Positions 2,516 to 27,609 are shown, numbered from the stretch's first letter. The stretch is 37,567 bases of DNA from Candidatus Caenarcanales bacterium (GCA_947459525.1 CANHDW010000009.1:1-37567), one strand, 5' to 3'. The notes: a model not told the origin generated them from the letters alone. Translations and numbers: made by a program.

Positions 2516-2567
2516 GAAGAATCATGAGAGCGACAAAAACGCAGAAAATGGAGTCTTGTAGCAGTCT
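2516..2567 (+). repeat. Family-1 short dispersed element, intergenic copy
   Basis: aatcatgagagcgacaaaaacgcagaaaatggagtcttgtagcagtct; in the frame of the downstream ATG it reads NHESDKNAENGVL*QS-M. Fills the gap between the Yip1-like stop and the PNP start. Confidence 0.75.
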
Positions 2568-3500
2568 ATGAAAAGAGCAATTATATTAGGTTCGGGCTTA
2601 GATATCTTATCAGGAGAAAGTCCTATCGAATCTATCCCTTATACTGAAATCCCTGGCTGGCCTCTCGGTAAAGTTAAAGGACATAAAGGCGTACTTGATA
2701 AATATAAAAACATATGGGTATTAAGAGGCAGAGCCCATCTCTATGAGGGTTTCACTTGGGAGCAAGCTTGCTTTCCCACTCAGTATCTAGTTAATCAAGG
2801 TATAGAAGAACTTATTCTGACGAATGCAGCTGGTGGCATAGATCCTAATTACGAAATAGGTGATCTTATGCAGATTACAGGTTATCTAAATTTTATGAAA
2901 CCAGATAAGTCTCGTAAATTATCTAGGATTTTGCAGGAACCCACCATATTTAACACAGAACTAATTAATAATCCACAGAACAAAAATGTGACTCTTGGAG
3001 TTTCAGAACAGAACCTAGACATTCATCCAGATCAAGGCACTGTTGCCGAACGTGCAAGTTCAAGGCTGAGGAGGACGAATGACCGCAGTGTACGGGTAAT
3101 TTCTGGCGATGCCAAGGATGCGAGCCATGTAAATGGATCATATCCGAGCAAGCAGAAATACAAGCTTGATTTATTAAGCTTACATGAGGATCATGAGGAC
3201 GACGAAAACGCAGAAATTGGAGTTCGGCAACAGTGCCATCAAGGTATTTATGTAGGTGTGCATGGACCTAATTACGAAACCCACTCAGAGATAGCTCTAT
3301 TTAAAAGCATGGGTGCAAGCGCTGTTGGTATGTCTACTATTCCAGAAATAGAAACTGCTGTTAAAAATAATGTCAAAGTAACAGCGATTAGCATTATCAC
3401 TAATGTCTATGGAAAAACAGTAGATCTAGGGCATGAAGGCGTGGTTCAGGCAGCTAAAAATGCTAGTGAGAAATTAGCTAGATTACTATGCCTCAGTTAA
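2568..3500 (+). CDS. Purine-nucleoside phosphorylase (PNP/MTAP family) with internal repeat-derived insertions
   Basis: IILGSGL, RAHLYEGFTWEQ, LILTNAAGGI, GIYVGVHGPNYET, GASAVGMSTIPEI motifs; unusual insert between GDLMQITGYLNFM and GIYVG. Confidence 0.9.
   Translation: MKRAIILGSGLDILSGESPIESIPYTEIPGWPLGKVKGHKGVLDKYKNIWVLRGRAHLYEGFTWEQACFPTQYLVNQGIEELILTNAAGGIDPNYEIGDLMQITGYLNFMKPDKSRKLSRILQEPTIFNTELINNPQNKNVTLGVSEQNLDIHPDQGTVAERASSRLRRTNDRSVRVISGDAKDASHVNGSYPSKQKYKLDLLSLHEDHEDDENAEIGVRQQCHQGIYVGVHGPNYETHSEIALFKSMGASAVGMSTIPEIETAVKNNVKVTAISIITNVYGKTVDLGHEGVVQAAKNASEKLARLLCLS
3048..3141 (+). repeat. Family-2 element copy inside the PNP gene
   Basis: Encodes RRTNDRSVRVISGDAKDASHV; nucleotide similarity to the PheT insert (ctggcgatgccaaggatgcgagccatg vs ctggccgaattcccagcgatgcggagcatg). 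Confidence 0.45.
3184..3239 (+). repeat. Family-1 short dispersed element inside the PNP gene
   Basis: atgaggatcatgaggacgacgaaaacgcagaaattggagttcggcaacagtgcc, encoding EDHEDDENAEIGVRQQCH. Confidence 0.9.
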
Positions 3501-4321
3501 ATAAACACTTACAGAGAGAAGTTCTCCGCACTAGCGAAAAGGGTGACAAAAACATAAAGACTAACATTATCGGGCAACTTGTTACTAGAGGTGATAGAGG
3601 CTTTTCCATACTAGAGATGGTAGTCGCCATCACGATTCTAACTGTCGTGACCTCTTTACTTTATCTCTATAACAATAAAGGATTTCTCTTCTTCGATAAA
3701 ATATTTACTTTCGATAGAATACAGTTAAACAGCAAATCTGCTACGGAATTACTATTAAATAATCTGCGCGAAGCCAGCCAAGAATATATTTATATAGGAA
3801 CTGGTTTTAACAGCAGCATTCCTCTCCCTGATGATTTAGTTAATGGTTCTGAGTATATCTATTTCGCTAAATTCATCTCAGATAAAGAAAACTCTGAGAT
3901 ACAGGGAATTAAAGATAGTATAAACAGAAAGACTAACGGTCACTATGACTACTATCTAGCTTATCAAGCTCAAATAGAGAATGGTCAAGGTGCATATTAT
4001 GAAGATAGAGCTCGCTTAAGAACTATCATTTTCCCCGATCAAACTATCGATCATACTGATTTTAATCAAGAAGACTGGCCTTTTCTGCCTAAGATAAATA
4101 ACGAAGATTTGAAAAAAATTAAAAACTTTGGGTTTCTTGATTATTTAAAACTAGGTGGCAATAGCCCTGTCTTCAGCTTAAAAAATTCTGTAATAGATTT
4201 TAATTATTTAGATGGTAGTCAGTTACTTGATAAGAAGACCATTCTAATTAATATTAAAATGACGGATGGTAAACAGAGTGTCATTCTTGAGACTTCTAGT
4301 GCTGTGGTGCCGAGGAATTAA
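3488..4321 (+). CDS. Prepilin-like / pseudopilin protein with N-methylation motif
   Basis: RGFSILEMVVAITILTVVTSLLYLYN: G^F-xxxE prepilin cleavage and hydrophobic helix. Long leader, possibly containing a degenerate family-1 copy (GDKNIKTNIIG). Confidence 0.75.
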   Translation: MPQLNKHLQREVLRTSEKGDKNIKTNIIGQLVTRGDRGFSILEMVVAITILTVVTSLLYLYNNKGFLFFDKIFTFDRIQLNSKSATELLLNNLREASQEYIYIGTGFNSSIPLPDDLVNGSEYIYFAKFISDKENSEIQGIKDSINRKTNGHYDYYLAYQAQIENGQGAYYEDRARLRTIIFPDQTIDHTDFNQEDWPFLPKINNEDLKKIKNFGFLDYLKLGGNSPVFSLKNSVIDFNYLDGSQLLDKKTILINIKMTDGKQSVILETSSAVVPRN

Positions 4322-4396
4322 GTGTTCTAATTATTTTAGTAATGCAGAAAAATTGCAAGAGCTGAAACCTCCACTAGGCAAGGACTTCAAGAGCGC

Positions 4397-4433
4397 TATT
4401 GCAAATTACACACATGATGCTAAAATTGCAATA
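4397..4433. promoter_or_regulatory. Inverted repeat immediately 5' of a DUF4143 ATPase gene
   Basis: TATTGCAA (4397-4404) and TTGCAATA (4426-4433) are exact reverse complements, 1 nt before the GTG start at 4435. Confidence 0.5.
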
Positions 4434-4434
4434 A

Positions 4435-5634
4435 GTGATAAAAAGAGAAATATTACCTGATTTAGTAAATGAACTTGATAAACCTGAAGTTCTGATTTTA
4501 ATTGGGGCAAGGCAAGTTGGTAAGACACACTTATTAAATGAATTATATAAATTAGCTGAATCCAAAAAGAAAACTGTTAAATACTTTAACCTTGAACTCC
4601 CCCTAGACAGCAGAATATTTAATCAAGATCTAGTCTATCTCTATGAAGAATTAACCTCTGATACTGATTATTTGTTTATTGATGAATTTCAGTATTTTGA
4701 AAACGCCTCAAAATTTTTTAAAGCTATTTTTGATGATAAAAAGATCAACACCAAGGTTATAGCCTCAGGTTCTTCTTCCTTAGAAATCCATAAACATCTC
4801 AAGGAGAGCCTTGCTGGAAGAAAAAAAGAAAAAATTATTTACCCACTCTCTTTCCTAGAATACAAACAACTTGATACCAATTTTGAAGATTTTCTGCTCT
4901 ATGGCGGAATGCCTGGCTTATCTAAATTAAATCAACGTAAAGAGAAAATAGAGCTTATTGGTAATCTTCTGCAAACCTTTATCCTAAAAGATATTAAATC
5001 ATTAATTTTAGAGGAAAATGTACCAGCCTTTAATGATTTAATTTATCTATTGGCTAACTATCAAGGGCAGATAGTTTCAGTCAATAATTTATCTAATGAA
5101 TTGAGGCTTGATAATCGCAGCACCGAAAAGTTCTTATATATTTTAGAGCAAACTTTTGTATTACATTCACTAGCAAGCTTTTCAGCGAATCTAAGCAACG
5201 AAATAAAAAAATCTAAAAAATATTTTCTTTATGATCTTGGTATTAGAAATTTACTTTTAAATAACTTTAAGAATATTAAGAAAAGAGAGGATAAAGGCCA
5301 GATCTATGAAACTTATGTACATAATTTCTTTAAACAAAATAAGCCTATCAACTCAGAGCTGAGATTCTGGAGAACTCGTAATGGTGAAGAAGTAGATTTC
5401 ATCTATATTAAAGATCAGGATATATACGCTATAGAAGTTAAATCAAAACTCAAAGATATGACCATTCCCGATGGCTTAAAGAAATTTATTAGAGCTTATA
5501 ATAAAACTATTAAAGCTTTTATCATTAATGAAAACCTTTCTGGAAGTACCGAATATGAGAATATATCTATAGAGTTTATCCAAATAGAAGAACTTGAATC
5601 AAATAAAAACATTAGAAAAATCTTAAAATCTTAA
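4435..5634 (+). CDS. AAA_14/DUF4143-type ATPase
   Basis: Walker A LIGARQVGKT, Walker B YLFIDEFQYF, ASGSSSLEI, SLAGRKKEKIIYPLSFLEY, C-terminal FWRTRNGEEVDFIY (DUF4143 nuclease-like motif). Confidence 0.9.
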   Translation: MIKREILPDLVNELDKPEVLILIGARQVGKTHLLNELYKLAESKKKTVKYFNLELPLDSRIFNQDLVYLYEELTSDTDYLFIDEFQYFENASKFFKAIFDDKKINTKVIASGSSSLEIHKHLKESLAGRKKEKIIYPLSFLEYKQLDTNFEDFLLYGGMPGLSKLNQRKEKIELIGNLLQTFILKDIKSLILEENVPAFNDLIYLLANYQGQIVSVNNLSNELRLDNRSTEKFLYILEQTFVLHSLASFSANLSNEIKKSKKYFLYDLGIRNLLLNNFKNIKKREDKGQIYETYVHNFFKQNKPINSELRFWRTRNGEEVDFIYIKDQDIYAIEVKSKLKDMTIPDGLKKFIRAYNKTIKAFIINENLSGSTEYENISIEFIQIEELESNKNIRKILKS

Positions 5635-5650
5635 AATCTAATTAAACATA

Positions 5651-7204
5651 ATGGTAAAAATAAAAAAAATTCTTATTCTCCTCTTCCTTGCAGTCATAAG
5701 CTTTCAGCTTACAGCCTGCACCGAGATAAGTAATAAAACTAACTGCCTGAATATGAACCTCGGCTTCGAACCCGAATCTCTAGACTGGAATCAAGTCAGT
5801 GACGCTTACTCACCTACTATAATTTCTCAGATCATGGATGGCTTAACTAGTTTCGATGAAAAAGATGGGGAAATTACAGTAAAGCCAGCTTTAGCTAAGT
5901 CTTGGGCTATTAATTCTGATGGTACTGAATATACTTTTCACTTAGATTCTCGGGCGAAGTGGTCTGATGGAAAACCGGTTTTAGCACAGCATTTTATCGA
6001 TTCTTTCACGAGAGCTTTAAATCCAGAGACAGCTTCACCTTATGGAGACCTGCTTTCAGTGATAGATGTAAATAAGTCTAAAGCCCTAGATAATGAAACC
6101 CTTTTAATTAAATTAAAATTTCCTGCTAATTACTTTCTCTTCTTAACAGCACAATGCTTTACCTATCCTATCCGTAAAGATCTTATAAATAAATATGGTG
6201 ATAACTGGACTGAAGCTAAAAACATGGTTACTACTGGACGTTTCAAGCTAGATAAATGGCAGCATGAATATAAAATCGTTTTAAAAGCTGTCCCAGACTA
6301 TTATTTACAGAATGAGATAAAAAGTAATATTAATGAACTTAAGTTTTTTATGGTGCCAGAACAGTCCAGTGCCTTCACTCTCTTTAAAAAAGGACAGTTT
6401 GACTGGATAGACGGCGGCTCTGTGCCAAGCTCAGAATTTAGTAAATTAGACTCTTTAAATCCCCAGAGATCCTCACTGTTAAGAAGTACTTTCCTGGGCT
6501 TTAATGTCCAGAAAGCTCCTTTTAATAATCCTCTTCTGCGTAAAGCCTTTTCCTATGCGATAGATAGAAAAGAGCTGGTGAAATTACGTGGTAGAGGCGA
6601 TGTCGCCACTGCATCATGGATACCCCCTGGTCTAAAATCCTTTCATAATGAAAATCGTGGACTAGAATATAAACCAGATGAAGCTCGTGCTTTACTGAAA
6701 GCCGCTGGCTATGAGCATGGTAAGAATTTCCCTGAGGTAGAATATCTATACCCTAGTAGAGAAGATGCTAAAGCTTTGGCTGAAATTATGCATTCTATGT
6801 GGAAAAAAGAATTAAACATAAATGTAAAACTAGTAGCCCTAGAGTGGAAAGTCTTCTTAAAGACGCTCACCGACAATCCTCCGCATCTTTATCGCATGAG
6901 TTGGGGTGCAGACTATCCAGAACCAAGCACTTTTATGTATTTATTCAATAAAAAATCTGCTATAAATCATGGTAGGTGGCATAACGCTAGATATGAGGAA
7001 CTCGTAAATTCTGCGGTACAGAGCTTAAATAGAGAAGAAAGTATTAGGCTCTATCAAGAAGCTGAAAAAATTTTATTAGATGAAGAAACCGCTATCGCCC
7101 CATTATTCGTTAATAGTCAGGTATTATTAAAACACGAGAATATTCATAATATAAGCCCCAACTCTCTAGATATTCTCTTTTTAGAAAAAGTAGTTAAGCA
7201 ATGA
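5651..7204 (+). CDS. ABC transporter substrate-binding lipoprotein, OppA/peptide family (SBP_bac_5)
   Basis: Lipobox LTAC; PESLDWNQVSDAYSPTIISQIMDGL, WSDGKPVLAQHFIDSFTRALNPE, YAIDRKEL typical of family 5 SBPs. Confidence 0.93.
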   Translation: MVKIKKILILLFLAVISFQLTACTEISNKTNCLNMNLGFEPESLDWNQVSDAYSPTIISQIMDGLTSFDEKDGEITVKPALAKSWAINSDGTEYTFHLDSRAKWSDGKPVLAQHFIDSFTRALNPETASPYGDLLSVIDVNKSKALDNETLLIKLKFPANYFLFLTAQCFTYPIRKDLINKYGDNWTEAKNMVTTGRFKLDKWQHEYKIVLKAVPDYYLQNEIKSNINELKFFMVPEQSSAFTLFKKGQFDWIDGGSVPSSEFSKLDSLNPQRSSLLRSTFLGFNVQKAPFNNPLLRKAFSYAIDRKELVKLRGRGDVATASWIPPGLKSFHNENRGLEYKPDEARALLKAAGYEHGKNFPEVEYLYPSREDAKALAEIMHSMWKKELNINVKLVALEWKVFLKTLTDNPPHLYRMSWGADYPEPSTFMYLFNKKSAINHGRWHNARYEELVNSAVQSLNREESIRLYQEAEKILLDEETAIAPLFVNSQVLLKHENIHNISPNSLDILFLEKVVKQ

Positions 7205-7947
7205 AAAAAATATACGGCGATATTAAGAGAAAAATCCTAAACAAGGCAGATGACATACTCTCTGATGAAGTTAAAGAGGAGCTTGGCATTAAAAAAATTG
7301 AGCTAAATGACAAGATTAAAGAGAACTGTAAAGATTCACAAATAGGCTTCTTTCAACCCATAGATTCTCAGCTATTAAATTCTAAAGAAGCCCAGAAAGT
7401 AAAGTCTGGCAGCATAATCGTAATCACGATTTTAATAGCTTTCCTATTATTTCTTTTTTTTAAACTTATAGTTCCTAATGATAATTATCTAAATGAAAGA
7501 GAAGGTATTACTGTTGTTGATGGCGATACCGTTCGTAAAGAAATTCACCCAGACATTAAAAAATCTAAAGTAAATGAGATTCAACAGATGCCTCTCTCTG
7601 AGAGTGATTTAAAGGTAGAAGATATTAAAGTTGCTAGCTCTAAAACCACTCAAAAAGCAGCTAATAACACGGATAATGATCCTATTGCTCAGATCGAATC
7701 AGAAAGAGCGAAAGAGCTAGAAGCTGCTAAAAAAATTGAGGCACAGAATTTACTCAATAAGCAAAATAGCACAAACAGTCAAACTACAACTAACAGTTAC
7801 ACAGTACGTCGCGGAGACTCACTTGCTATTATTGCTCAGAGAGTTTATGGTTCAAGCAGCATAGCAAATATTGAGAAAATTAAACAAGCTAACAGAATTA
7901 GAAATCCTCGTTCTCTTCAGGTAGGGCAGAAGTTAGTGACTCCGTAG
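7201..7947 (+). CDS. Single-pass membrane protein with C-terminal LysM domain
   Basis: C-terminal YTVRRGDSLAIIAQRVYGSSSIANIEKIKQANRIRNPRSLQVGQKL; one TM segment (SIIVITILIAFLLFLFFKLIV). Overlaps the upstream stop by ATGA. Confidence 0.88.
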   Translation: MKKIYGDIKRKILNKADDILSDEVKEELGIKKIELNDKIKENCKDSQIGFFQPIDSQLLNSKEAQKVKSGSIIVITILIAFLLFLFFKLIVPNDNYLNEREGITVVDGDTVRKEIHPDIKKSKVNEIQQMPLSESDLKVEDIKVASSKTTQKAANNTDNDPIAQIESERAKELEAAKKIEAQNLLNKQNSTNSQTTTNSYTVRRGDSLAIIAQRVYGSSSIANIEKIKQANRIRNPRSLQVGQKLVTP

Positions 7948-8017
7948 GAACACTGTAGACCTAAATACCTAAGTTCATGAGCAGGATGACCTAGAAAGTT
8001 GGATTATACCACCATCT

Positions 8018-8728
8018 CTAAGCGGGCTGTGTGCCAGACTGGTTATTAAAGTTATTAAAGCTACTACCCACACGAGAAGCAGCTTGTTGAGCGGTGCTTG
8101 CAGCTTGCCTGCCCAAATTACTTAAAACATCTCTCGCCGTAGCACTTAGATTTTGTCCGTTAGAATTTTTATATGCATCAGCAGTTAACCTCTGATTTAA
8201 GAACTCAAAAATCTCTTTTTCTAGTTCCTTTGGTAACTTCATCGCTTTAATTTCACTAACTATTCGCTTATGATGGTCTTTTTCTACACCCACTTGCGCG
8301 AGTTTAGTTTTCAGAAGATAGCCAGCCCCCACACCTAAACCACCTATAATCATAGCTAATTTTTTCCAGCCTAAACCTAGGTACAGTAAGCCCGCCAAAC
8401 CACCTGCACCCCACATTAGAGTAGTACCAGCTTTATCCAGAGCAGCTCTGCCTTTGCCAATGATATTTTCAAAGGCATTTTTACCTGAAGGCTCATTGGG
8501 ATCTTGATTAGAATTGGTTTGTGTTTGATTCTTGGTAAAATTCGTACTCGCTGAGGGGTTAGTTTTGGAAAAATTCTGTCCAGTTCGGCGGTCATAATTA
8601 GGACCTGCATTTTCAGTAGTAATATTTCTAGCGTTATTCCCTCTAGGATCGCTAGGATTTAATACCTCGACTCCTGGTGTAGGAGCTGATGTAGACGAAT
8701 TTCTTGGAGTAGTACCTACTCTTGACAT
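8018..8728 (-). CDS. Hypothetical protein, low-complexity N/S/T-rich N-terminus plus glycine-rich hydrophobic core
   Basis: Full-length ORF; LMWGAGGLAGLLYLGLGWKKLAMIIGGLGVGAGYLL; no family recognised. Confidence 0.6.
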   Translation of the reverse strand: MSRVGTTPRNSSTSAPTPGVEVLNPSDPRGNNARNITTENAGPNYDRRTGQNFSKTNPSASTNFTKNQTQTNSNQDPNEPSGKNAFENIIGKGRAALDKAGTTLMWGAGGLAGLLYLGLGWKKLAMIIGGLGVGAGYLLKTKLAQVGVEKDHHKRIVSEIKAMKLPKELEKEIFEFLNQRLTADAYKNSNGQNLSATARDVLSNLGRQAASTAQQAASRVGSSFNNFNNQSGTQPA

Positions 8729-8880
8729 TGATAAATCTTATTTTAGCATAAATGTATATACCTATTTATGTTTTTATTATATTTTGTTTTTGGAGAATTT
8801 TAATATGGTTAAAACTGTATTAATCTCTCTTATTTTTGCTGTAGAACAGGCTGCTTGAGATTTACTTTGTTGGTTTGGGT

Positions 8881-14300: not shown

Positions 14301-15560
14301 GTGAGCTTAACTAATAATCCAAAAGAGTTCTTTCAGTGGCTAGAAACAGCCACCGAAGGGACTCTTTTTTATTTTATTTCCGAATGGCATAAGAAAGGTG
14401 AGAGCAGTGAAGAACTTATTAAGTTTATAGAATTTCTTCGAGAAAAGGCTCCGCCACTCAAACTCACTTATAAGACTCTTGCGAGAGAGGATCATGAAGA
14501 CGACGAAAACGCAGAAATTGGAGTTTCGCTACACGCCCATCTTGCCTATGACTGTGCTGGTACTGGTGGCGATAAATCTCATAGTTTTAATATTTCTACC
14601 GGCACAGCCTTTCTTGCTGCTTACGCAGGCTTACCTGTAATTAAAAATGGCGGTCGCTCAGCTAGTAGTAAAGTAGGTTCAGTCGATGTCCTTTATGAAT
14701 TAGGTCTGGATTTAGATATTAGTAAAGAAAAAAAGCTAGAAGCCTTTCAAAAACTAGGTTTGAGTTTTTTTTCCAGTAAAGTATCTAGCGAATACTTACT
14801 GCCTGTAAAAAATTTAGCTAGAAAATATAAAGAATCCTGCTTTATAAATTTAATCGCTCCATTCCTCTCACCAATTGAGCTTCAGGGACAGATTATTGGT
14901 ATCGCTCAAGCTCGCTGGATTCCAGTAATGAAAGAGATAGCCCGATATTTTATAAAAAAAGGCTACCGCCAAAAATTTATCCTAGTACACTCAAGCGAAG
15001 AGTTTTTAGAAAATCCTCTTAAAGAGCTCAATGAGGGAAATACAGAAATTAGAGATTCCGAGCAGTCCCTTAAGAGTACTAAAGCTGAACTTTTAAGTTC
15101 ATCAGTCTTAGATGAGTTTAATACAGCCATGCCCTCTAAAATTATTTTCATTTCTGAGTATAAGGACGACGAAAACGCAGAGATTGGAGTTCCGCAAAAG
15201 TACCTTGAACAGGAATTTATACTCAACCCCGCGAGCAAATTATTTTCAGAACTAGCACTAACAACTGCGAAGCTTAAGGACTTAGAGGGGGGAAATACTG
15301 CAGAGAATGCTCAGATATTACTAAAAATCTTTAAAGGAGAGGCTCAAGACCCCAGATTAAAGATTAAAGCTGAGACTCTCGCCCTCAATACAGCCTTAAT
15401 GCTTCTACTAAAAGAGAACTTCAGTCTTTTTTACGATGAAAAGAGCTTAGTAAAAGAACTTACAGAGAATTACATAAAATTAAAAAAAAATCTTGAGACT
15501 CAGAATTTATATAAATTCCTAGGAGAATTACGCAAGTATTTCACAAAAGAAAAATTATGA
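14301..15560 (+). CDS. trpD: Anthranilate phosphoribosyltransferase with multiple internal insertions
   Basis: DCAGTGGDKSHSFNISTGTAFLAAYAGLPVIKNGGRSASSKVGSVDVL, LDLDIS, NPASKL and EGGNTAENAQILLKIFKGE. GTG start. Confidence 0.93.
   Translation: MSLTNNPKEFFQWLETATEGTLFYFISEWHKKGESSEELIKFIEFLREKAPPLKLTYKTLAREDHEDDENAEIGVSLHAHLAYDCAGTGGDKSHSFNISTGTAFLAAYAGLPVIKNGGRSASSKVGSVDVLYELGLDLDISKEKKLEAFQKLGLSFFSSKVSSEYLLPVKNLARKYKESCFINLIAPFLSPIELQGQIIGIAQARWIPVMKEIARYFIKKGYRQKFILVHSSEEFLENPLKELNEGNTEIRDSEQSLKSTKAELLSSSVLDEFNTAMPSKIIFISEYKDDENAEIGVPQKYLEQEFILNPASKLFSELALTTAKLKDLEGGNTAENAQILLKIFKGEAQDPRLKIKAETLALNTALMLLLKENFSLFYDEKSLVKELTENYIKLKKNLETQNLYKFLGELRKYFTKEKL
14485..14540 (+). repeat. Family-1 short dispersed element inside trpD (copy 1)
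   Basis: gagaggatcatgaagacgacgaaaacgcagaaattggagtttcgctacacgcccat; encodes REDHEDDENAEIGVSLHAH, just before the DCAGTGGD motif. Confidence 0.92.
15031..15070 (+). repeat. Possible degenerate family-1 copy inside trpD
   Basis: atgagggaaatacagaaattagagattccgagcagtcc, encoding NEGNTEIRDSEQS; aligns with gaaaacgcagaaattggagttccgctac with substitutions and an indel. Confidence 0.4.
15155..15200 (+). repeat. Family-1 short dispersed element inside trpD (copy 2)
   Basis: gagtataaggacgacgaaaacgcagagattggagttccgcaaaag; encodes EYKDDENAEIGVPQK. Confidence 0.9.
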
Positions 15561-16526: not shown

Positions 16527-16529
16527 TTT

Positions 16530-17519
16530 ATGTCTTTAGAGACTATTATTAAAAAATATGGAGCAGAAAATATATCTTTTGCTTTACTGAAAAGGGCTTC
16601 TACTAAAGAGAATGACGGAAACATAGAGAATGGACTTGTACAAAGGTCCCTAGAATTCGAAAATATACTTGAACATAACCTAGACAGCTACTTTCATCCA
16701 GCTAGTCTTTTAAAATTATTCATAAGCCTGATGGCAAGTGAGCTTTTGCTGCAAAATAATCAATTAGAAGTCAGAAAAACTGAGTATGAAAAAAATGAAT
16801 TAAGCAAGGCTATTCACGAAAGCATCTCTGCATCAGATAACGATGCTCTCGCCTTCCTTGTCGACTATTTAGCAGCTTATCCGTGGGATTATAATCTCAT
16901 TAATATAGAAAATACCCTGAAATTCACTCCAGATAAACAGTCCCAAGATATTTTAAATGACATACTTAATAGCCGCCTTGAAATTAATAAATTCTTTTTG
17001 GAGAAAGGTTTTTCAAAAAAAATAAACCTTGTTAATAAATGCTTTGGTTTTGATTACTATGGCAAAGAAAGACAGATCTATGAAGCTCTAGAACACAATC
17101 AGATCAATAATCGAGATCTAATAAAATTGCTAATCCTTATAGAAAAAGACTTCCCTCTTATTCTTAATTCCATGAAGCGAACGCTTGAAAATAGTGAAGA
17201 TCATGAAAGTGCAGAAATTGGAGTTCCGCTACACGCCTATGATATCCCTAGTGGCATAATCAACACAGAAGATTATCAAGTTCAAGCCTTCTCTGCAAAA
17301 GTGCTTGCTGAGGAATTTAAAGTAAAAAGCATTTATTCTAAAGCTGGCTGGAATTCTAAAGTTAGACATGATGCTGTGTTATTCAGCATAGAGAAAAACG
17401 TAGAAAATGGCGCTGTGCAGCAGTCTCAGTATATTTTAACTGTACTAACTAAGAACCTCAGCCATGACGAAGAGATTTTACAGGAAATCGCACGAGAAGT
17501 AATCTTGACCTTAAATTAG
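16530..17519 (+). CDS. Class A beta-lactamase-like serine hydrolase with internal repeat insertions
   Basis: SYFHPASLLKLFISLMASELL (SxxK), SASDNDALAFLVDYLA (SDN); KAGWNSKVRHDAVLFSI in KTG-like region. Confidence 0.75.
   Translation: MSLETIIKKYGAENISFALLKRASTKENDGNIENGLVQRSLEFENILEHNLDSYFHPASLLKLFISLMASELLLQNNQLEVRKTEYEKNELSKAIHESISASDNDALAFLVDYLAAYPWDYNLINIENTLKFTPDKQSQDILNDILNSRLEINKFFLEKGFSKKINLVNKCFGFDYYGKERQIYEALEHNQINNRDLIKLLILIEKDFPLILNSMKRTLENSEDHESAEIGVPLHAYDIPSGIINTEDYQVQAFSAKVLAEEFKVKSIYSKAGWNSKVRHDAVLFSIEKNVENGAVQQSQYILTVLTKNLSHDEEILQEIAREVILTLN
16608..16649 (+). repeat. Divergent family-1 element in the beta-lactamase-like gene (copy 1)
   Basis: gagaatgacggaaacatagagaatggacttgtacaaaggtcc; encodes ENDGNIENGLVQRS, matching the intergenic copy DKNAENGVL*QS. 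Confidence 0.6.
17196..17240 (+). repeat. Family-1 element in the beta-lactamase-like gene (copy 2)
   Basis: gaagatcatgaaagtgcagaaattggagttccgctacacgcctat; encodes EDHESAEIGVPLHAY. Confidence 0.9.
17391..17426 (+). repeat. Family-1 element in the beta-lactamase-like gene (copy 3)
   Basis: gagaaaaacgtagaaaatggcgctgtgcagcagtct; encodes EKNVENGAVQQS. Confidence 0.65.
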
Positions 17520-17535
17520 GACTCTTCTGAATTCA

Positions 17536-18144
17536 TCACCCTGCAACAGCTTCATCCAAAGCACTCTGCTTAGCACCGGTCTGCCCTTGATAATTACTCT
17601 TTGAATTCTTTTTTTTACCGTAAGGATGAGTAACTGGTAAGTTACGCATAAATATCATCTGGGCTATAGGCTTGCCCGCTATAAGCTTCAAAGGCGCCTT
17701 TCCTTGATTAGTTAACTCAACTACCCCTTCACCCTCAAAACCACTGTCAAAAAGCCCAGCAGACTCCACATAGAGCCCTAAACGCGCCCATGAACTTTTC
17801 CCCTGAAGATAACCATGTATAGTATTCGGAAAATAAAAATATTCTCTAGTAGTGCCTAAGACGAAATCACCGGGTGCAAGAATCATTTCATCAGCATCAA
17901 ACTCTTCAAAGCTTCCATCTGAACGCTGCTTTGCAAAGTGCTTACCGATATGCACATCTAGGCTATTAGGCTGTATCGCCTTCTCTTCTAAATTATCTAC
18001 TCTCAGGAAACCTAATGCTAGATAGAGTCTCATCTGCCAGTCTACTAAATTCCCTGGACTAAGAAACACTAAATATAAGCCAAAAAGTATTATTGGACTA
18101 ATTAATAAAGAGATGTAAAGAAGTATCAAAGGATATATACTCAT
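17536..18144 (-). CDS. dcd: dCTP deaminase / dUTPase-family protein with hydrophobic N-terminal extension
   Basis: IQPNSLDVHIGKHF, LAPGDFVLGTTREYFYFP, LQGKSSWARLGLYVESAGLFDSGFEGEGVVELTN, GKPIAQMIF. ORF N-terminus is TM-like. Confidence 0.88.
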   Translation of the reverse strand: MSIYPLILLYISLLISPIILFGLYLVFLSPGNLVDWQMRLYLALGFLRVDNLEEKAIQPNSLDVHIGKHFAKQRSDGSFEEFDADEMILAPGDFVLGTTREYFYFPNTIHGYLQGKSSWARLGLYVESAGLFDSGFEGEGVVELTNQGKAPLKLIAGKPIAQMIFMRNLPVTHPYGKKKNSKSNYQGQTGAKQSALDEAVAG

Positions 18145-18148
18145 AAAA

Positions 18149-19213: not shown

Positions 19214-19228
19214 AGAGTACCTTTCATC

Positions 19229-20239
19229 TTAGCCTAAATGCTTAAACACCTTATATGCAGTATCTAAAAGTGGTGCATAATCTTTAGCTCTAGATTTTAA
19301 AAGTAAATAATTACCCTTAAACTCAGCGATTAAATACCAGACCGCTCCGCTACTAATTAATGCCTGACAGACCTTCCCTGTGCCAATAGCTTGTGATGCT
19401 TGGCTAGAATTTTTAAATACCGAGATAAGCTCATCTTTATTACTCTCATCCCAGAAAAAAACAGATTTCTCTAATGAGGTGAAATTATCATCCAAGCACA
19501 ATGCTGCCGTAATATCTTTATTAATATATTTAAGTAAAGTCTCTTCTAAATTAGAAAGCTTAACATTAGTATTACTGTAAGTCTTCTGTGAAAACTGTTC
19601 TAAATAAACATCGAAAATTTCACTAACTTCGTCTTTAAGCTCATTTGCCATTCTGCGAGACTTTAAAGCCTGCTGCTTATTTTTAATCTGTTCTTCTGGA
19701 ACTTCTGCAATTAAATTAGAGAAATCAGCTTTTTTAAAACTATTTACGGTAGTTTCCGAATCATCGAAAATAGTCTTCCAATGAAGTCTTTCTTTGAAAT
19801 AAATCATCCCGAATACTAAAAGATTTATGAGAAGTAACACATAGGCATTCACTAAAACCGCTGAAGGAGACTGCCCTCCACTATTATCAGCAGCTACTTG
19901 GTTTACTAAAGGCTCTTTAAATATAAAGGCTGGGTTTCCCTCTCCGAGTGGCACGAAAACTAAAAGTAAAAAGAAAACGGCTATGATGACTAAAAACTCT
20001 GCTGAGAGCTTTATTACCTTTTTATTATCTACCGATGGAAACATAAAGCTAATGCTTAAAAAAGCGAAAGCTAATTCCCCCATTAAAAGATTTAGTATAG
20101 AGATCTCTGTCACCAAGCTGCTAAAAGCTGAGAGATATGAAAGCACTGTCATTAGAATTAAGACAGCCACAACTAATGAGACTATGCGCCTACGCATTAA
20201 TCCTCTTAAAACTGAATTTAAATCAAACCCTGAAAGCAA
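19229..20239 (-). CDS. Hypothetical membrane protein
   Basis: N-terminal TM segments and a soluble C-terminal region; 17-nt overlap with the pheT 3' end. Confidence 0.55.
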   Translation of the reverse strand: MLSGFDLNSVLRGLMRRRIVSLVVAVLILMTVLSYLSAFSSLVTEISILNLLMGELAFAFLSISFMFPSVDNKKVIKLSAEFLVIIAVFFLLLVFVPLGEGNPAFIFKEPLVNQVAADNSGGQSPSAVLVNAYVLLLINLLVFGMIYFKERLHWKTIFDDSETTVNSFKKADFSNLIAEVPEEQIKNKQQALKSRRMANELKDEVSEIFDVYLEQFSQKTYSNTNVKLSNLEETLLKYINKDITAALCLDDNFTSLEKSVFFWDESNKDELISVFKNSSQASQAIGTGKVCQALISSGAVWYLIAEFKGNYLLLKSRAKDYAPLLDTAYKVFKHLG

Positions 20240-22982
20240 CTGATAATTCCCTTATTAAAAACTCTTTTAGCTTTACGACCTCAGCATCTATCTGTTCTCT
20301 AGAATACTCTTGCTCAGAATGCCATCTAAGCCTTAAAGTAAAACTACTCTGATAAAGATCTAATAATTTAATATCCTGAAGATCTTTAGATTTAAATTGC
20401 TTAATACCATTCACGATCTCAGCATAAGTGTGCCCCGAAGCAGCATCTACAGTAATATCCCTTTCTACTGGAGGGTTTTTAATAATCTTAGCGAATTTAC
20501 TTTTCAGCTTACGTGGCAGCTCAAGCTCAATAAAATAGAGCTTCTCTGGCAGTTCTAGCTCATCTACTTTCTGTGGATGAATCTTAGCGATATAGCCTAT
20601 CTCTTTACCCTGATATATGACCTTAGCAGCGATACCAGGATGCATTAAATCAGTTAAAATACTTTCTGGATCTGAGTTAAGAGGTGTTTTTTTAATAGTA
20701 GATTCTGCATCTAAAGTCGTGAAACTCACATTCTGATACAGTCTTTCAATAATTGATTTAAATTCATAGAAATCCTTCTCTCGATGTAAGGGTTTCTGCT
20801 CATCAGTCCATGATTTCTCTAGCTTCGCCATTACTATAGCGACTTTCTCTACTTCCACGGTGTCGCTTAAATCGTATTTATGGCTCGGCTCGACTTCTAC
20901 GTTTTTGTCACGCTTGTAAGAAATAAGAGAGTCAAAAAACTCAATAACAACAGGACCTCCGACTTCTGCGTTTTTGTCACGCTTATAAGAGTAAGTTTTA
21001 CCAAATTCGAACAGCTTAATATCGGTAGTTCTGTCGTTAGCATAATTTTTAGAAACAGCCTTTATTAAAGATGGTAATAAAGAAGTCCTTAACACGGAAT
21101 AATCTTTAGATAATGGATTTAACATCTTAATCGCTGACTCAGAGACGGATGTATCGCTAACTAGGCTGCTTAAAATCACTTGGTTAAAGCCTTCTGCTAT
21201 TAATAAATTCTCTAATTCATCTTTAGCCAAATTTGGGACTTGTCTTGCATCATGCTCCGCATCGCTGGGAATTCGGCCAGAGGATATAACATGCTGATGT
21301 GGATGTACCGCTCCACGGAGATTCGTTAGTTTTAGTTTTTTTGCAGCAGGCTTAGCTGAAGTTGAACTTGTACGAGTCTCTTCTTTCGCTTCGAAACTAG
21401 CTTGCATAGGCGGTAACTGAGCTGGAATATTATCATAGCCATAGATTCTGACTATCTCTTCGATAAGATCTATTTCACGCTGTATATCTTTAGTTCTAAA
21501 GCTTGGTACGGAGAAGGTATATGATAATTCTGTTTCACCCACATAGCTAATACCCAAAGGAGCTAAAAGCTTTTGCACCTCTATAAGTGAAAGATCTATT
21601 CCGATAAATCTCTTTATCTGAGATAATCTTAGCGAAACTTCTTTAATCTCTAAAGCCTCATCTCCAGCTTTAGCTAAGTTACCTAAAATAGTAAGCTTGC
21701 TATCTTCGGCATTAGTGGCATCAGTAGCTAAATTACTTAAAAGATCAAGCGACATTAATATCGCATTTAGAGTATTAAGTTTATCGACACCTCTCTCGAA
21801 GCGTTTCTTAGCTTCACTATCTATACCAGCAGCTCTAGCACTGCGTCTTACTGTCGCTGGATAAAATACAGCTGACTCGATAACTATATTATTTGTGGCA
21901 GCAGTAATCTGTGAATCAAAACCACCCATTACCCCAGCGATAGCCACTGGACCAGACTCATCAGCGATAACTAAATTAATTTCACTTAATTCATAAGTCT
22001 CACCATCTAAGGCTTTCATGCTCTCACCTAAATTCGCTCTGCGGGAAATCAGTTTAGAACCTTTTAATTTATCTTTATCGTAAAAGTGCAGCGGCTGACC
22101 TAAAGTTAACTGAACATAATTACTTATATCCACCAAATTATTAATCGATTTCATGCCCATCGCATTTAATCTATCTTTTAGCCACTGCGGGGAATCCTTC
22201 ACTTTAAGTCCTGAAACATTTAAAGTATAAAAAAGTAAAGTATCTTTATTATCAGTTATCTCTGGCTCTATAAAAGCAGTATTTTCACTAGCATAAGCCT
22301 GAATCCCTTTATTAGTAAGCTGTTTTAATGGGCGCTGTAACAGAGCAGATATCTCTCTTGCTTGCCCTTGTACAGAAAGCGCATCACCACGATTACTTCT
22401 AGCTCCTATATCTAAAACAGTATCTTCTTCTATGCCTAAAACCTTTCTGACGGTAGTTCCTAAAGGAATATCTAAAGCTTTATTCTCTATATCTGCTCTA
22501 TTCGGATCGAAAAATAAATATATGCCATCACCCTGCTTCGCTTTAATTTTCTCTACTTCATCTTCACTAAACCCTAGTTCCTCTACACCACAGAGCATCC
22601 CGAAGCTTTCTACATCACGAATTTTACTAGGCTTAATTTCAATAAAATCACCTTTAACGCTTTTTAACTTCGCACCGATAGTCGCTACTGGTACTTTCTG
22701 CCCAACAGCTATATTTTTTGCTCCGCAGACTATTTGTTGAATATTTTTAGTACCATCAGCATTTAAGCCGACAGCCGTTTTAGTAACCTGTAATTTATCA
22801 GCATTCGGATGGGGCGCTATCTCTAGAATCTCACCTAAAACTATACGCTCATCTATAGAATCATTAAAAGCCTCATAGTCCTCGACCTCAAAGGCTCTCA
22901 TAGTTAATTCATGCACCAGATCTTGCAGTGGTACATCTTTAATATCAACGAACTCATTTAAGCAGTTTAAAGATACTTTCAT
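20223..22982 (-). CDS. pheT: Phenylalanyl-tRNA synthetase beta subunit, enlarged (919 aa) by insertions
   Basis: MKVSLNCLNEFVDI, tRNA-binding domain, YGYDNIPAQLPPM, LFEFGKTY, C-terminal anticodon-binding domain LRLRWHSEQEYSREQIDAEV. Confidence 0.96.
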   Translation of the reverse strand: MKVSLNCLNEFVDIKDVPLQDLVHELTMRAFEVEDYEAFNDSIDERIVLGEILEIAPHPNADKLQVTKTAVGLNADGTKNIQQIVCGAKNIAVGQKVPVATIGAKLKSVKGDFIEIKPSKIRDVESFGMLCGVEELGFSEDEVEKIKAKQGDGIYLFFDPNRADIENKALDIPLGTTVRKVLGIEEDTVLDIGARSNRGDALSVQGQAREISALLQRPLKQLTNKGIQAYASENTAFIEPEITDNKDTLLFYTLNVSGLKVKDSPQWLKDRLNAMGMKSINNLVDISNYVQLTLGQPLHFYDKDKLKGSKLISRRANLGESMKALDGETYELSEINLVIADESGPVAIAGVMGGFDSQITAATNNIVIESAVFYPATVRRSARAAGIDSEAKKRFERGVDKLNTLNAILMSLDLLSNLATDATNAEDSKLTILGNLAKAGDEALEIKEVSLRLSQIKRFIGIDLSLIEVQKLLAPLGISYVGETELSYTFSVPSFRTKDIQREIDLIEEIVRIYGYDNIPAQLPPMQASFEAKEETRTSSTSAKPAAKKLKLTNLRGAVHPHQHVISSGRIPSDAEHDARQVPNLAKDELENLLIAEGFNQVILSSLVSDTSVSESAIKMLNPLSKDYSVLRTSLLPSLIKAVSKNYANDRTTDIKLFEFGKTYSYKRDKNAEVGGPVVIEFFDSLISYKRDKNVEVEPSHKYDLSDTVEVEKVAIVMAKLEKSWTDEQKPLHREKDFYEFKSIIERLYQNVSFTTLDAESTIKKTPLNSDPESILTDLMHPGIAAKVIYQGKEIGYIAKIHPQKVDELELPEKLYFIELELPRKLKSKFAKIIKNPPVERDITVDAASGHTYAEIVNGIKQFKSKDLQDIKLLDLYQSSFTLRLRWHSEQEYSREQIDAEVVKLKEFLIRELSVAFRV
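20881..20922 (-). repeat. Family-1 variant element inside pheT (copy A)
   Basis: Minus strand tcttacaagcgtgacaaaaacgtagaagtcgagccgagcca; encodes SYKRDKNVEVEPSHKYD. Confidence 0.75.
20952..20990 (-). repeat. Family-1 variant element inside pheT (copy B)
   Basis: Minus strand tcttataagcgtgacaaaaacgcagaagtcggaggtcc; encodes SYKRDKNAEVGGP. 31-nt core matches copy A at 29 positions, 69 nt apart. Confidence 0.8.
21241..21330 (-). repeat. Family-2 element copy inside pheT
   Basis: Encodes LTNLRGAVHPHQHVISSGRIPSDAEHDARQV between YGYDNIPAQLPPM and KDELENLLIAEGF; similar to the PNP insert. Confidence 0.5.
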
Positions 22983-23003
22983 GCAAGTTACAATATTAGC
23001 AAT

Positions 23004-23360
23004 ATGACGTTTATGAAGAAATCATTTTCATCTTTTTTGGTTCTAATTAGCTTAATTAGCTACCCTTTAAACTCCTCGGCCGCAAATAGCCCAGCAGAGC
23101 CACATGAATCTCTAGAATGGTTTGAGCTGATGCAAGACTGGCTAGATAATAAAATCGATGAAACTACTATAGAACTTCATGAAGAAATGGATAAAACTTT
23201 AGAAACAGCTGAAAAAACTAAAAAAGAAGTCCGCAAGGATATAGAAAAAACTAAAAAGAAGAATCAAGAAAAAAGGGCTGAGCTGCAAAAGAAAAAAGAA
23301 GCTCATAAAGAAAAACTGAAAAAAGAACTGGATGCTGGCAAAGAGCTTGGCGGTGAGTAA
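23004..23360 (+). CDS. Hypothetical secreted, highly charged coiled-coil protein
   Basis: Signal-peptide-like N-terminus (SFLVLISLISYPLNSSAA) and K/E-rich coiled coil. Confidence 0.6.
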   Translation: MTFMKKSFSSFLVLISLISYPLNSSAANSPAEPHESLEWFELMQDWLDNKIDETTIELHEEMDKTLETAEKTKKEVRKDIEKTKKKNQEKRAELQKKKEAHKEKLKKELDAGKELGGE

Positions 23361-23437
23361 GACTGGGAAAGTAACTACAAAATATCTGTTATGATAAATT
23401 AAAAGTTAAAATAAATACCGAACTAAAAAGGTGAAGA

Positions 23438-24298
23438 ATGAGTAGACTGTTTGAATTTGATTCATGTGTTTCAAAGATTTTTAATCAAAACTGCTTAGAT
23501 GGACTCATAGCCCTAGAAAGTAATTCTATTGACCTCATTATAACTTCTCCTCCCTATGCCGACCAAAGGTCAGCTACTTATACGGCAATAAAGCCAGATC
23601 ATTATGTCGAATGGTTCTTGCCAATAACATCCGAATTATTTAGAGTCTTAAAACCCACTGGCACTTTTATTCTTAACATCAAGGAAAAAGTTGCTAATGG
23701 AGAAAGGCATACTTACGTTCTTGAATTAATCCTTGAGATGAAAAAACAAGGTTGGTTATGGACCGAAGAATTTATGTGGCATAAAAAAAACTGTTATCCA
23801 GGTAAGTGGCCAAATCGTTTCCGTGACTCATGGGAGCGTCTCTTACAATTCAATAAAGAACGTAAATTTAACATGTATCAAGAAGAAGTCATGGTTCCTG
23901 TTGGGGACTGGGCTCAAAATCGCTTAAAAAATTTAAGTGAAACCGATAAAATTCGAGATCCTTCTAAGGTCGGTAGTGGGTTTGGTAAAAATATTTCCAA
24001 TTGGGTTGGGCGAGATAAAGCTTATCCAACAAATGTACTCCATCTTGCAACAGAATGCAGCAATAAGTCACATAGTGCTGCTTTCCCTAAAAGCCTCCCC
24101 GAATGGTTCATTAAGCTTTTTACAGAAAAAGGAGATACTGTACTAGACCCATTTTTAGGATCTGGAACTACTTGTCTTGTTGCAAGCTCAATGAAGCGTA
24201 ACTCAATTGGTTTTGAGCTTGAAGAAAAATACTTTAATATTTGTGTAGAATCACTATCCCAGTTAAATGATAGTAATAAACAATTATGCCTGTTTTAG
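23438..24298 (+). CDS. Site-specific DNA methyltransferase (N4-cytosine or N6-adenine, TSPPY type)
   Basis: LIITSPPYADQR (motif IV), DTVLDPFLGSGTTCLVASSMKRNSIGFEL (motif I), C-terminal to the catalytic motif. Confidence 0.93.
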   Translation: MSRLFEFDSCVSKIFNQNCLDGLIALESNSIDLIITSPPYADQRSATYTAIKPDHYVEWFLPITSELFRVLKPTGTFILNIKEKVANGERHTYVLELILEMKKQGWLWTEEFMWHKKNCYPGKWPNRFRDSWERLLQFNKERKFNMYQEEVMVPVGDWAQNRLKNLSETDKIRDPSKVGSGFGKNISNWVGRDKAYPTNVLHLATECSNKSHSAAFPKSLPEWFIKLFTEKGDTVLDPFLGSGTTCLVASSMKRNSIGFELEEKYFNICVESLSQLNDSNKQLCLF

Positions 24299-25050
24299 AT
24301 TACAACAAAGTCGAAGTATTTATCCAAGATCATGTCATTCAGCCATTTTACGAAGAAAAATTTAAAAAACTACAAAACCTACAGTTAAAAAAATTTCTTT
24401 CAAGAAAAAATCCTTATTTATATAAAGCTAAAAATGCAACTATCGTCAGTGAACTGGTTGAATCCATGCTAGATTCTTATCTCTCATCACAAGAAGAAAC
24501 TATTTTAGGAAACCTTATGGAAAAATTAGCCATCCATATTTGTGAATTAGTTTTTAATGGAAAAAAAGCAGAAGAGAAAAAATTCAAATCAATTGATCTC
24601 ATTTTTGAAACAGATCTTAGCCTGTTCATTGTTGGAATCAAATCCGGACCATCTTGGGGGAATGCAGATCAAATTAAAAAAATGCAGGAGAATTTTAAAA
24701 AAGCAAGAATCATTCTTCGAGAAGAGGGCATTCAAAAATCAATAAAAGCTATCAATGGTTGTATGTACGGCAAAGAAATTAGAATTTTAAATGACAATGT
24801 AGATCCAGACATGCATTATGAAAAAATTTCTGGACAAGCTTTCTGGGAGCTTATTTCAGGAGACGTGAATTTATATAAGAAAATTATCAAACCGATGGAA
24901 CTACGAGCTAAACAGAATTCAGATAAACTAGATGTTTTATATACACAAAAAGTCAATGGTTTTACAGATGACTTCTCAGCAAGTTTTTGCACTAATAACC
25001 TAATAGACTGGGAAAAACTACTAGATTTTATTTCAAAAAATAAATCATAA
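24286..25050 (+). CDS. Putative type II restriction endonuclease, resembling the PmeII family
   Basis: 13-nt overlap with the methyltransferase; LGNLMEKLAIHICELVFNGKKAEEKKFKSIDLIFETDLSLFIVGIKSGPSWGNADQIKKM, a D-x(n)-GIKSG nuclease-like core. Confidence 0.8.
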   Translation: MPVLDYNKVEVFIQDHVIQPFYEEKFKKLQNLQLKKFLSRKNPYLYKAKNATIVSELVESMLDSYLSSQEETILGNLMEKLAIHICELVFNGKKAEEKKFKSIDLIFETDLSLFIVGIKSGPSWGNADQIKKMQENFKKARIILREEGIQKSIKAINGCMYGKEIRILNDNVDPDMHYEKISGQAFWELISGDVNLYKKIIKPMELRAKQNSDKLDVLYTQKVNGFTDDFSASFCTNNLIDWEKLLDFISKNKS

Positions 25051-25174
25051 TGATTCGTAATTTATCAGCATTCCAGCCCCAAACTCCAAAAATTCTATTA
25101 ATTTTTTAGACTAGAGCTCCAAAACACTCAAAAACTGGGTAAAATATTACTATTCAAGAAAGTATTTTAAAACC

Positions 25175-26314
25175 ATGGATATAAAAAGAGAAGTACAAAT
25201 AGATAAACTTCTTAAAAAAGGCAAAGCCTTACTAATTTATGGTGCAAGGCAGGTTGGGAAAACCACTTTAGTTAAAAACTTTCTTCTTGATAATAAATCT
25301 AAATTCAGGCAGCATACTGGAGAAGACATTCAACTACAGATTTTATTTAAAGACCTTTCAACATATGACTTAGACGAGTTTGTGGAAAATTTAGAAATTC
25401 TCATTATAGATGAAGCTCAAATTCTAGAGAATCTCGGCAGAGGAATTAAATTAATTTTAGATAGAAACCCAAAGTTAGCAGTAATATTAACAGGTTCATC
25501 TTCGTTTGAATTAGCAAATCAGCTCAGTGAACCACTAACTGGCAGGAAAAAAACTCAGTGCCTCTTACCTCTTAGTATTAAAGAACTCTCTGAGCATTAT
25601 GGTCGATATGAAATTAAACATAAACTAGAAGAATTATTACTCTATGGCTCATACCCAGAAATCATTACGACTAAAAATAAGCATGAGAAGAGAGAACTGA
25701 TCCTTGAGATAGCTAATAGCTATTTATTTAAAGACATTCTGAGTTTTTTAAATCTAAAAAAAGCTGATGTACTTTATAAATTAACGAAATTACTTGCTTA
25801 TCAAATCAGCTCAGAAGTGAATGTTAATGAGCTTGCGAGCAACTTACAAGTAGATAATAAAACTATTACTCATTACCTAGATATATTAGAAAAGTCCTTT
25901 GTTATAAAAATGATTCCAGCCTTCAACAGTAATCAGAGAAACGAAATCAAAAAATCTAAAAAGATATATTTCTTAGATCTCGGTATTAGAAATGCTTTAA
26001 TAAACCAGTTTCAAGATATAGAGCTGCGGAATGATAAAGGAGCCTTATGGGAAAATTTCGTTTTTCTGGAACTCTATAAGCGAATCGAATACGACAGAAG
26101 TTTTAAAACTATCTATTTTTGGCGAACTCATGAACAGCAGGAAATAGATTTTATTCTAGAAGCAGATGGTTTACTAGAACTCTACGAAACGAAGTTTAAT
26201 GCTAAAAAAAGCACGAAGATCCCGCCGCAGTGGCTAAAACATTATCCTGAATTTCAAGAATTAAAGCTGATTCATACTGGGAATTTTATGGATTTTTTTA
26301 CTAATACAGATTAG
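25175..26314 (+). CDS. AAA_14/DUF4143-type ATPase
   Basis: LIYGARQVGKTTLV, ILIIDEAQILEN, LTGSSSFELANQLSEPLTGRKKTQCLLPLS, FWRTHEQQEIDFILE. Confidence 0.92.
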   Translation: MDIKREVQIDKLLKKGKALLIYGARQVGKTTLVKNFLLDNKSKFRQHTGEDIQLQILFKDLSTYDLDEFVENLEILIIDEAQILENLGRGIKLILDRNPKLAVILTGSSSFELANQLSEPLTGRKKTQCLLPLSIKELSEHYGRYEIKHKLEELLLYGSYPEIITTKNKHEKRELILEIANSYLFKDILSFLNLKKADVLYKLTKLLAYQISSEVNVNELASNLQVDNKTITHYLDILEKSFVIKMIPAFNSNQRNEIKKSKKIYFLDLGIRNALINQFQDIELRNDKGALWENFVFLELYKRIEYDRSFKTIYFWRTHEQQEIDFILEADGLLELYETKFNAKKSTKIPPQWLKHYPEFQELKLIHTGNFMDFFTNTD

Positions 26315-26430
26315 ATATTAAATGCATTAAAAATCATTAAAAAACCTTAAAAGAGTTTTATCTATTCGCTAATCTGCCCTTTAATACTGCTAGGATTATG
26401 AGCGTCTTATTTTAAACAAAGGAGTTTAAA

Positions 26431-27609
26431 TTGGATAGACGTAAGTTCCTAACATTAGCAGGAGCAGCAGGAGTTATAGCAGCATACCCAAAAGGAACTG
26501 CGGCTCTTAGATCTGAAATATCTGATAATTACACTGCTACCGCCAAAGCTCTCAGAGAAGAGATGCCTAATAACGGTGTGAATAATGACGATGAAAACGC
26601 AAAAATTAAAAGTAAGCAATCCCCTGACCGCCCAATAGCTCTACACGAGAGAGTTTTAGAAACATTAAATCCCACTGTTACGGAAGCAGCCACCTCAATC
26701 TTTAGCCAGTTTAAAGAAGCTTCTCTATTGATCGAAAAAAATATAAAAGCTAATACAGTTGGTCGCTTAAACAAAGAAGAAACTATTTACTCTAATGCTG
26801 ATAAATGGGCATCTGCCACTATGGCTGCTCCTATATGGGCATTAAGCCTAGCAAGTCGCACGTTAGGTGACTCTATTACAGCAGGAATTGAATTGAGTAA
26901 ATCCGATAAATCTTCCCTCAGCAGCATGTTTGCATATAATGCTCAAACTTTTTCTATCACTTATATTAAAAACTTTCTTGTCGAATCACTACGAAATTTA
27001 CTCATAGAGCAGATGAAATTAAACAATGAGCTAGACCCTCGTCGCATAAATGCTCAAGCTGTTTTTGAAGATCTAAACGGAGATTCTCTGAAAATAAAAT
27101 TTTCTGAAAATCTTCAATCAATATCTGAAATTCCCAAATCCTTTAGCAAGGCTTCTACTAATAGGAAAATCTTAGATAGTGGATCAATCGGCATAGGTTT
27201 TCTGCTAAGCCCTATTAATACTGGTCTTGGTAAATTTATAAATTCACTCGGTCGCCAAAGAATAGTCGGTGAGAATGCTTTAAGAAAAGAGCTGGGATCT
27301 GAAAATTATAATAAACAAGCCAAAATAGCTGTGGCTAATGCAATTACTTACCCTTTTTTTAATTTAATTAATGGAATATGCCAAGAGCTAGTTAAGAAGA
27401 CTATTACACTTGATAGCAGCTCACAGTTAGCTCAAACTAATTTCAGAGAATTAATCGGTAACCTATCAAGCTTTTTTGGATATATGACTCTAAAAGTACC
27501 TATTCAAAATGAGCTTGAGTACGCGATGCATAAGCAAGAAGAATTCCGGACACCTTTTAAGGAAATTGCTGAATTGATGGAGCCGACTTCCAAAAAATCC
27601 CTAGATTAA
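26431..27609 (+). CDS. Hypothetical exported protein with Tat-like signal peptide
   Basis: TTG start after aaaggag; MDRRKFLTLAGAAGVIAA twin-arginine-like signal. Confidence 0.65.
   Translation: MDRRKFLTLAGAAGVIAAYPKGTAALRSEISDNYTATAKALREEMPNNGVNNDDENAKIKSKQSPDRPIALHERVLETLNPTVTEAATSIFSQFKEASLLIEKNIKANTVGRLNKEETIYSNADKWASATMAAPIWALSLASRTLGDSITAGIELSKSDKSSLSSMFAYNAQTFSITYIKNFLVESLRNLLIEQMKLNNELDPRRINAQAVFEDLNGDSLKIKFSENLQSISEIPKSFSKASTNRKILDSGSIGIGFLLSPINTGLGKFINSLGRQRIVGENALRKELGSENYNKQAKIAVANAITYPFFNLINGICQELVKKTITLDSSSQLAQTNFRELIGNLSSFFGYMTLKVPIQNELEYAMHKQEEFRTPFKEIAELMEPTSKKSLD
26587..26613 (+). repeat. Family-1 element (partial/degenerate) in the Tat-signal protein gene
   Basis: gacgatgaaaacgcaaaaattaaaagt; encodes DDENAKIKS. 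Confidence 0.6.

Follow-up and report, generated by a model that had tools for sequence, protein, structure and literature searches.

A frame-compatible hairpin element in protein genes of a Caenarcanales bacterium, probably a mobile MITE-like palindrome

The window analysed here, a stretch of 37,567 nucleotides from a Candidatus Caenarcanales bacterium, raises the question why near-identical short DNA segments lie inside unrelated genes in one frame and one orientation. A first-pass annotation, made from the sequence alone, had described a dispersed element of about 50 nt, either a selfish mini-element with one tolerated frame, similar to the Rickettsia palindromic elements (RPE), or a peptide module selected at the protein level. 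The copies at 2517, 3186, 14487, 15162, 16608, 17196, 17391 and 26587 are present, and the genic ones are in sense and in the DENAEIGV frame. The dispersed copies are real, but the unit is longer than proposed, and the 50 nt are its 3' part, mostly left as deletion remnants. The evidence presented below makes it likely that the element is non-autonomous and mobile, a MITE-like, RPE-like palindrome that is tolerated in frame and mobilised as a folded strand.

The window belongs to genome G000, a Caenarcaniphilales-type Melainabacteria of 1.02 Mb (54.5% complete). The congeneric genomes G001 and G002 were used for comparison; G006 is from another genus of the family.

The unit, its ends and its hairpin

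The complete element is a hairpin of 121 nt (102 of 124 distinct copies). A long form of 190-205 nt, mostly 190, 196, 199, 202 or 205 nt, carries an extra internal segment. The element is bounded by inverted repeats of about 16 bp, and insertion is accompanied by a 5-bp target-site duplication (TSD). When the flanking 5-mers of 124 copies were compared, per-base identity was 62% at the exact boundary; it was about 30% at shifted offsets and did not exceed 39% when the pairings were shuffled. At least four of the five bases matched in 36 of the 70 copies without a preceding remnant. The target preference looks like (A/C)(A/T)NA(T/A/G). Copy length was 1 mod 3 in 120/124 copies. The element and its duplication sum up to 126 nt (121+5), thus insertion is frame-neutral; each standard insertion lengthens the sequence by 126 nt or by some other multiple of three, and the element starts at a codon boundary in the genic phase. 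Short, with terminal inverted repeats and a target-site duplication but no transposase gene, the element has the properties of a MITE.

The features of the window are listed in Table 1. The PNP orthologues of G001 and G002 do not contain the full copy and are 91-98% identical in the aligned parts. Alignments with solved PNP structures skip the insert. G002 also has the older remnant in this gene, which predates the full copy. The remnants of trpD and of the beta-lactamase-like gene are in part common to three genomes and in part missing from G002. Orthologues in distant taxa carrying the segment as a conserved part of the fold would have spoken against insertion; the other genera lack the segment. 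Two further segments in pheT (20889-20918 and 20958-20987) had been taken for independent insertions. These are a local duplication: the KRDKNAE stretch is native in two congeneric genomes and was duplicated here.

Table 1. Element copies, remnants and target duplications in the window.
Feature	Position	Strand	Basis
Full long-form hairpin element, 202 nt, in frame in the PNP gene (2568-3500)	3036-3237	+	Empty site in G001/G002 PNP; covariance model (R1) match 3036-3237; fold
Left TSD copy, ATCAA	3031-3035	+	Sequence; family-wide 5-bp TSD statistics
Right TSD copy, ATCAA	3238-3242	+	Sequence; family-wide 5-bp TSD statistics
Older, decayed PNP remnant (3' half), upstream of the full copy; G002 has it, G001 does not	2979-3015	+	
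3'-half remnant lying between two genes; G001 has the orthologous copy	2517-2567	+	
3'-half remnant in trpD, present in each of the three congeneric genomes; lies outside the part of trpD that aligns with homologues of other genera	14487-14538	+	
Decayed 3'-half remnant in trpD (NTEIRDSEQSL); also in G001, absent in G002	15039-15069	+	
3'-half remnant in trpD, absent in G002	15162-15204	+	
Decayed 3'-half remnant, beta-lactamase-like gene; in G001, absent in G002	16608-16650	+	
3'-half remnant, beta-lactamase-like gene, common to three genomes	17196-17237	+	
3'-half remnant, beta-lactamase-like gene, common to three genomes	17391-17427	+	
Decayed pheT insert, in frame, with pieces of the long-form internal segment and of the 5' segment; both G001 and G002 lack it	21236-21377	-	
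Probable decayed 3'-half remnant (DDENAKIKSKQSP) in the Tat-signal protein gene	26587-26624	+	Sequence match only

Two other observations were made in the window. A 39-nt AT-rich intergenic unit is perfectly duplicated in tandem at 28839-28916, just upstream of a minus-strand ORF. Two ORFs (4435-5634 and 25175-26314) contain the Walker-type motif GARQVGKT; they are presumably related ATPases of the DUF4143 type.

The aligned 121-nt copies are predicted to fold over their full length into one hairpin (z=-5.8), and the long PNP copy folds as a single hairpin as well (z=-6.7). Both sides had changed with pairing kept in 25 of the 38 pairs of the 121-nt alignment, a number that no shuffle matched. 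Pairing was 96.7%, compared with 83.3% in shuffled alignments and 29-42% when the partner was slid. Covariation was 0.372; shuffling reduced it to 0.113 and sliding to 0.071 or less. In the inner stem, single Watson-Crick pairs at intervals of three bases (29-93, 32-90, 35-87, 38-84, 41-81 and 44-78) form a ladder that lies between conserved duplex parts and has the period of the codon. Four of the ladder steps are tandem G.A/A.G mismatches, retained in 95-102 of 102 copies; from their sequence, these would form sheared G.A pairs. In 60 matches from other genera 37 of 38 pairs had changed on both sides, with a covariation of 0.781 versus at most 0.135 after sliding, although this alignment was fitted to the model and therefore leans towards structure. 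An Rfam search around element copies from several genera gave no relevant match. The element is a strongly covarying structure with an unusual tandem G.A ladder that is absent from Rfam.

Reading frame, orientation and decay

Copies counted as genic when they lay, with flanks on both sides, within an open stretch of 150 codons or more. The counts cover three genomes plus a few loci of relatives. All 51 genic full copies (46 separate loci) were in sense and in the same phase, and so were 79 of 81 genic half copies. The frames are therefore not used at random, and the earlier statement that the frame is always the same holds for full copies, with two exceptions among the half copies: one is a remnant near an ORF start, the other a chance-level match in another genus. 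Six genic copies from other genera, another family and a viral contig had the same frame. In G004 and G006 the clearly genic copies were 121 nt long and the intergenic ones mostly 118-120 nt.

The genic frame reads GRVAERTSSRLRRTNDRSV-LRVHEDHEDDENAEIGVPLHA, a strongly hydrophilic peptide. Stop codons close two sense frames in nearly all copies. They were rejected as the only cause of the sense bias, since one antisense frame is open in 32/51 genic full copies and is never used. The GRAVY value was -1.32 for the sense peptide and -0.26 for the antisense peptide. Genic 121-nt copies were free of stops in frame in 42/42 cases, the others in 49/60.

As a control for orientation, intergenic copies between co-directional genes were counted. 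Here, 17 lay with and 9 against transcription (p=0.17), and the difference to the genic loci (46:0) was significant (p=4e-5). Intergenic copies occur in both orientations, thus the sense bias most likely arises after insertion. Polarity of insertion was rejected as its cause on these numbers; what they indicate is selection acting on the translated product. Genes destroyed by an insertion would score as intergenic, so that the phase statistic is partly conditioned and the orientation statistic is not. Insertion itself would then have no strong orientation bias, and copies that break or burden a protein would be purged. A lineage with tolerated length, open frame and tolerated peptide may have multiplied in the genus in this way.

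Most remnants are 3' halves (147 copies, versus 4 5'-half copies). Orthologue pairs document the conversion. At one locus (L064/L088) G001 has a full copy and G002 the 3' part alone. At another (L147/L081) G001 has a half copy and, after it, a full copy, where G002 has just one half copy; recombination between the two cores would give this outcome. These pairs show that genic copies decay into 3'-half remnants, either through in-frame deletion or when neighbouring cores spaced about 126 nt recombine. The concentration of 3' halves was also seen between genes, and protein-level purging does not account for that. Of 124 full copies, 54 lie directly 3' of a half copy and only 3 have a half copy downstream. 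Therefore, old remnants are preferred landing places.

Mobilisation

The ends differ widely in sequence among copies and retain their complementarity. Because they vary and yet stay complementary, we infer that mobilisation needs the folded strand, as single-stranded DNA or RNA, which an enzyme acting in trans would cut. Among mobiliser candidates, Y1 transposase and reverse transcriptase domains were not found in the genus, whose assemblies are incomplete.

The main rival for this step, which differs from the folded-strand reading in mobilisation only, is an ordinary MITE. Here, a DDE transposase would bind a conserved subterminal sequence, and end complementarity would be kept only by template-switch (quasi-palindrome) correction. 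Terminal inverted repeats with a 5-bp TSD are the classical DDE signature, the nearly invariant columns of the aligned copies (about 16-34 and 88-106) could be binding sites, and the arms of palindromes are known to correct each other. However, the end sequences would have to be constant for a classical DDE transposase, and the variable ends of the element count against it. No autonomous partner was recognised either, and the covariation also takes in isolated rungs of the inner ladder, a pattern not readily predicted from arm correction alone. We regard a DDE transposase as possible but doubtful.

An RNA-mediated element is unlikely. A structured transcript would be copied back and 5'-truncated as in LINEs, which would account for the 3'-half copies and the sense bias, and both the RNA-like structure and the large excess of 3' halves are in line with it. 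Yet half copies have no target duplication at the left edge, and their interpretation as 5'-truncated retro-insertions was rejected on this ground. The orthologue pairs argue for deletion of full copies, and intergenic copies have no significant sense bias. The RVT_1 domain (PF00078) was not found in the incomplete assemblies G000-G005.

Movement of a REP-like palindrome by a Y1/HUH (RAYT-type) transposase that recognises single-stranded DNA hairpins would fit recognition of a hairpin rather than a sequence, and Y1_Tnp (PF01797) is present in G003, G004 and G005, other element-carrying genera of the family. It was not found in G000, G001 and G002, where the element is most abundant and of which two are 88-93% complete. 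Moreover, IS200/IS605-type insertion yields no target duplication, in contrast to the 5 bp duplicated here. This mechanism is distinctly improbable.

Least probable, and very unlikely in our view, is a peptide module (such as an acidic linker or a binding motif) whose usefulness to its host proteins makes it spread: the identical frame, the core peptide kept by older copies in three genomes (trpD 14487, bla 17196) and a weak synonymous excess (11/29 changes in genic full copies versus 7/45 in intergenic ones, 30-nt part, p=0.05) speak for it, but the hosts are unrelated enzymes with no common context, orthologues in sister genomes often lack or truncate the insert, about 60% of full copies lie outside a long ORF, nucleotide pairing and not the peptide is conserved across families, and the 5' and 3' halves are oppositely charged, with usually one alone remaining. 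The synonymous excess fits a weak constraint in genes whose frame has to remain open, and not strong peptide selection. The element peptide had no Pfam or NCBIfam domain match. Of the two original proposals, the selfish mini-element is the one supported, by empty sites, 5-bp TSDs and covarying ends.

Distribution and comparison with known systems

Absence of further copies would have contradicted a dispersed element. A 60-nt consensus had 52 matches in G000 at E<=10, nearly all with E<1e-3 and far above chance, and many in G001 and G002 too. Copy numbers per genome are lower bounds and refer to the stretches around matches only. With an exact 31-base pattern, which diverged relatives could escape, a GTDB-wide search gave only Melainabacteria/Caenarcanales records among the matches listed. 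The covariance model detected the element in all nine family members searched. In family f8 it found 20 and 29 copies in two genomes and a few in two more, and in family f9 a weak single match. In a sample of the phylum, two genomes of a further family had 1 and 3 copies; the stretches that carry them have 51-68% G+C and may be contaminants. Several intergenic copies in G004 had 5-bp duplications when inspected by eye.

Three observations concern more distant or unusual copies. Loci L275, L276, L278 and L280 (G149, G127) are GC-rich hairpin relatives with the tip GGGCCGCAGCGUAC...GUACGUGAGG, and two of them are flanked by near-identical direct repeats of 7-8 nt; this suggests a wider superfamily, or contamination of the MAGs. 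On a small contig of the window genome (L046, G000:C33, 3850-9561) at least nine cores were found, with tandem arrays of 123-126 nt period inside ORFs, which looks like expansion by unequal exchange. BLAST against phages and plasmids gave no match to the element. The viral contig IMGVR_UViG_3300036719_006592 (L282:7769-7889) carries a decayed in-frame copy with a perfect tip motif near the C-terminus of a 230-codon ORF, and spread between hosts by this route is possible.

A broader reading, which we put forward tentatively and hold to be somewhat less than evenly supported, is a previously undescribed superfamily of hairpin transposons in several Vampirovibrionia families, perhaps in more of the phylum. 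Its enzyme would recognise the shape of the folded strand (tandem G.A ladder and CCGCAG-GUAC...GUAC-UGAGG tip) and not the end sequence. One lineage would have become codon-compatible through an inoffensive peptide and a length that, with the duplication, is a multiple of three.

The Rickettsia palindromic elements were reportedly described by Ogata in 2000 and 2002. RPE are about 105-150 bp long stem-loops with inverted ends and an open frame with a conserved peptide, and they occur in frame inside protein genes unrelated to each other (PMC10969869, PMC2229807). The present element is similar as a hairpin of 121-205 nt that is in frame at all 46 genic loci, in unrelated protein genes. In contrast, its peptide does not match the RPE1 model TIGR01045, the sole RPE family compared (no NCBIfam match; TIGR01045 not found in 7 genomes), and its hosts are Vampirovibrionia, not Alphaproteobacteria. 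A 5-bp target duplication was found here, whereas that of RPE is listed as unknown (PMC2229807). The tandem G.A ladder, the deletion remnants and the insertion beside remnants also differ.

The Correia/NEMIS, ERIC, RUP and YPAL MITEs are short, lack a transposase gene and have inverted ends and target duplications, with some frames fused to genes, and known bacterial MITE families are primarily intergenic (PMC2229807). The element shares short length, inverted ends, TSD, the missing transposase gene and an open frame in genes. Unlike in these families, its ends are not constant in sequence and no partner insertion sequence was identified. REPs are 20-40 nt long with a constant tag at one end and are associated with RAYT (Y1) transposases (PMC3733652). 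Palindromic nature, high copy number and a plausible hairpin recognition are common to REP/BIME and the element, which differs by its 121 nt, variable ends, 5-bp TSD and the Y1 gene not found in the genus. In Nematomorpha mitochondria, coding palindromes are perfect repeats within protein-coding sequence (PMC6649704). There, too, hairpins in coding sequence satisfy protein and structure at once; the element, however, is an inserted mobile unit with a mismatched inner stem. Nothing relevant on the tip motif or on Melainabacteria palindromes was found in the literature consulted.

In summary, the element is a separate, structure-conserved family of protein-coding palindromic elements that behaves like RPE and has no sequence relation to RPE1. 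To our knowledge, protein-coding palindromes have so far been a curiosity of Rickettsia and Wolbachia with unknown insertion mechanism. A family in another phylum, without detectable relation to these, now offers empty sites, a 5-bp TSD, exact boundaries and an intergenic control for orientation. It makes the question of selfish DNA inside essential genes directly testable. For the organisms themselves, it means that the extra loops of many proteins in these genomes are debris of a mobile element.
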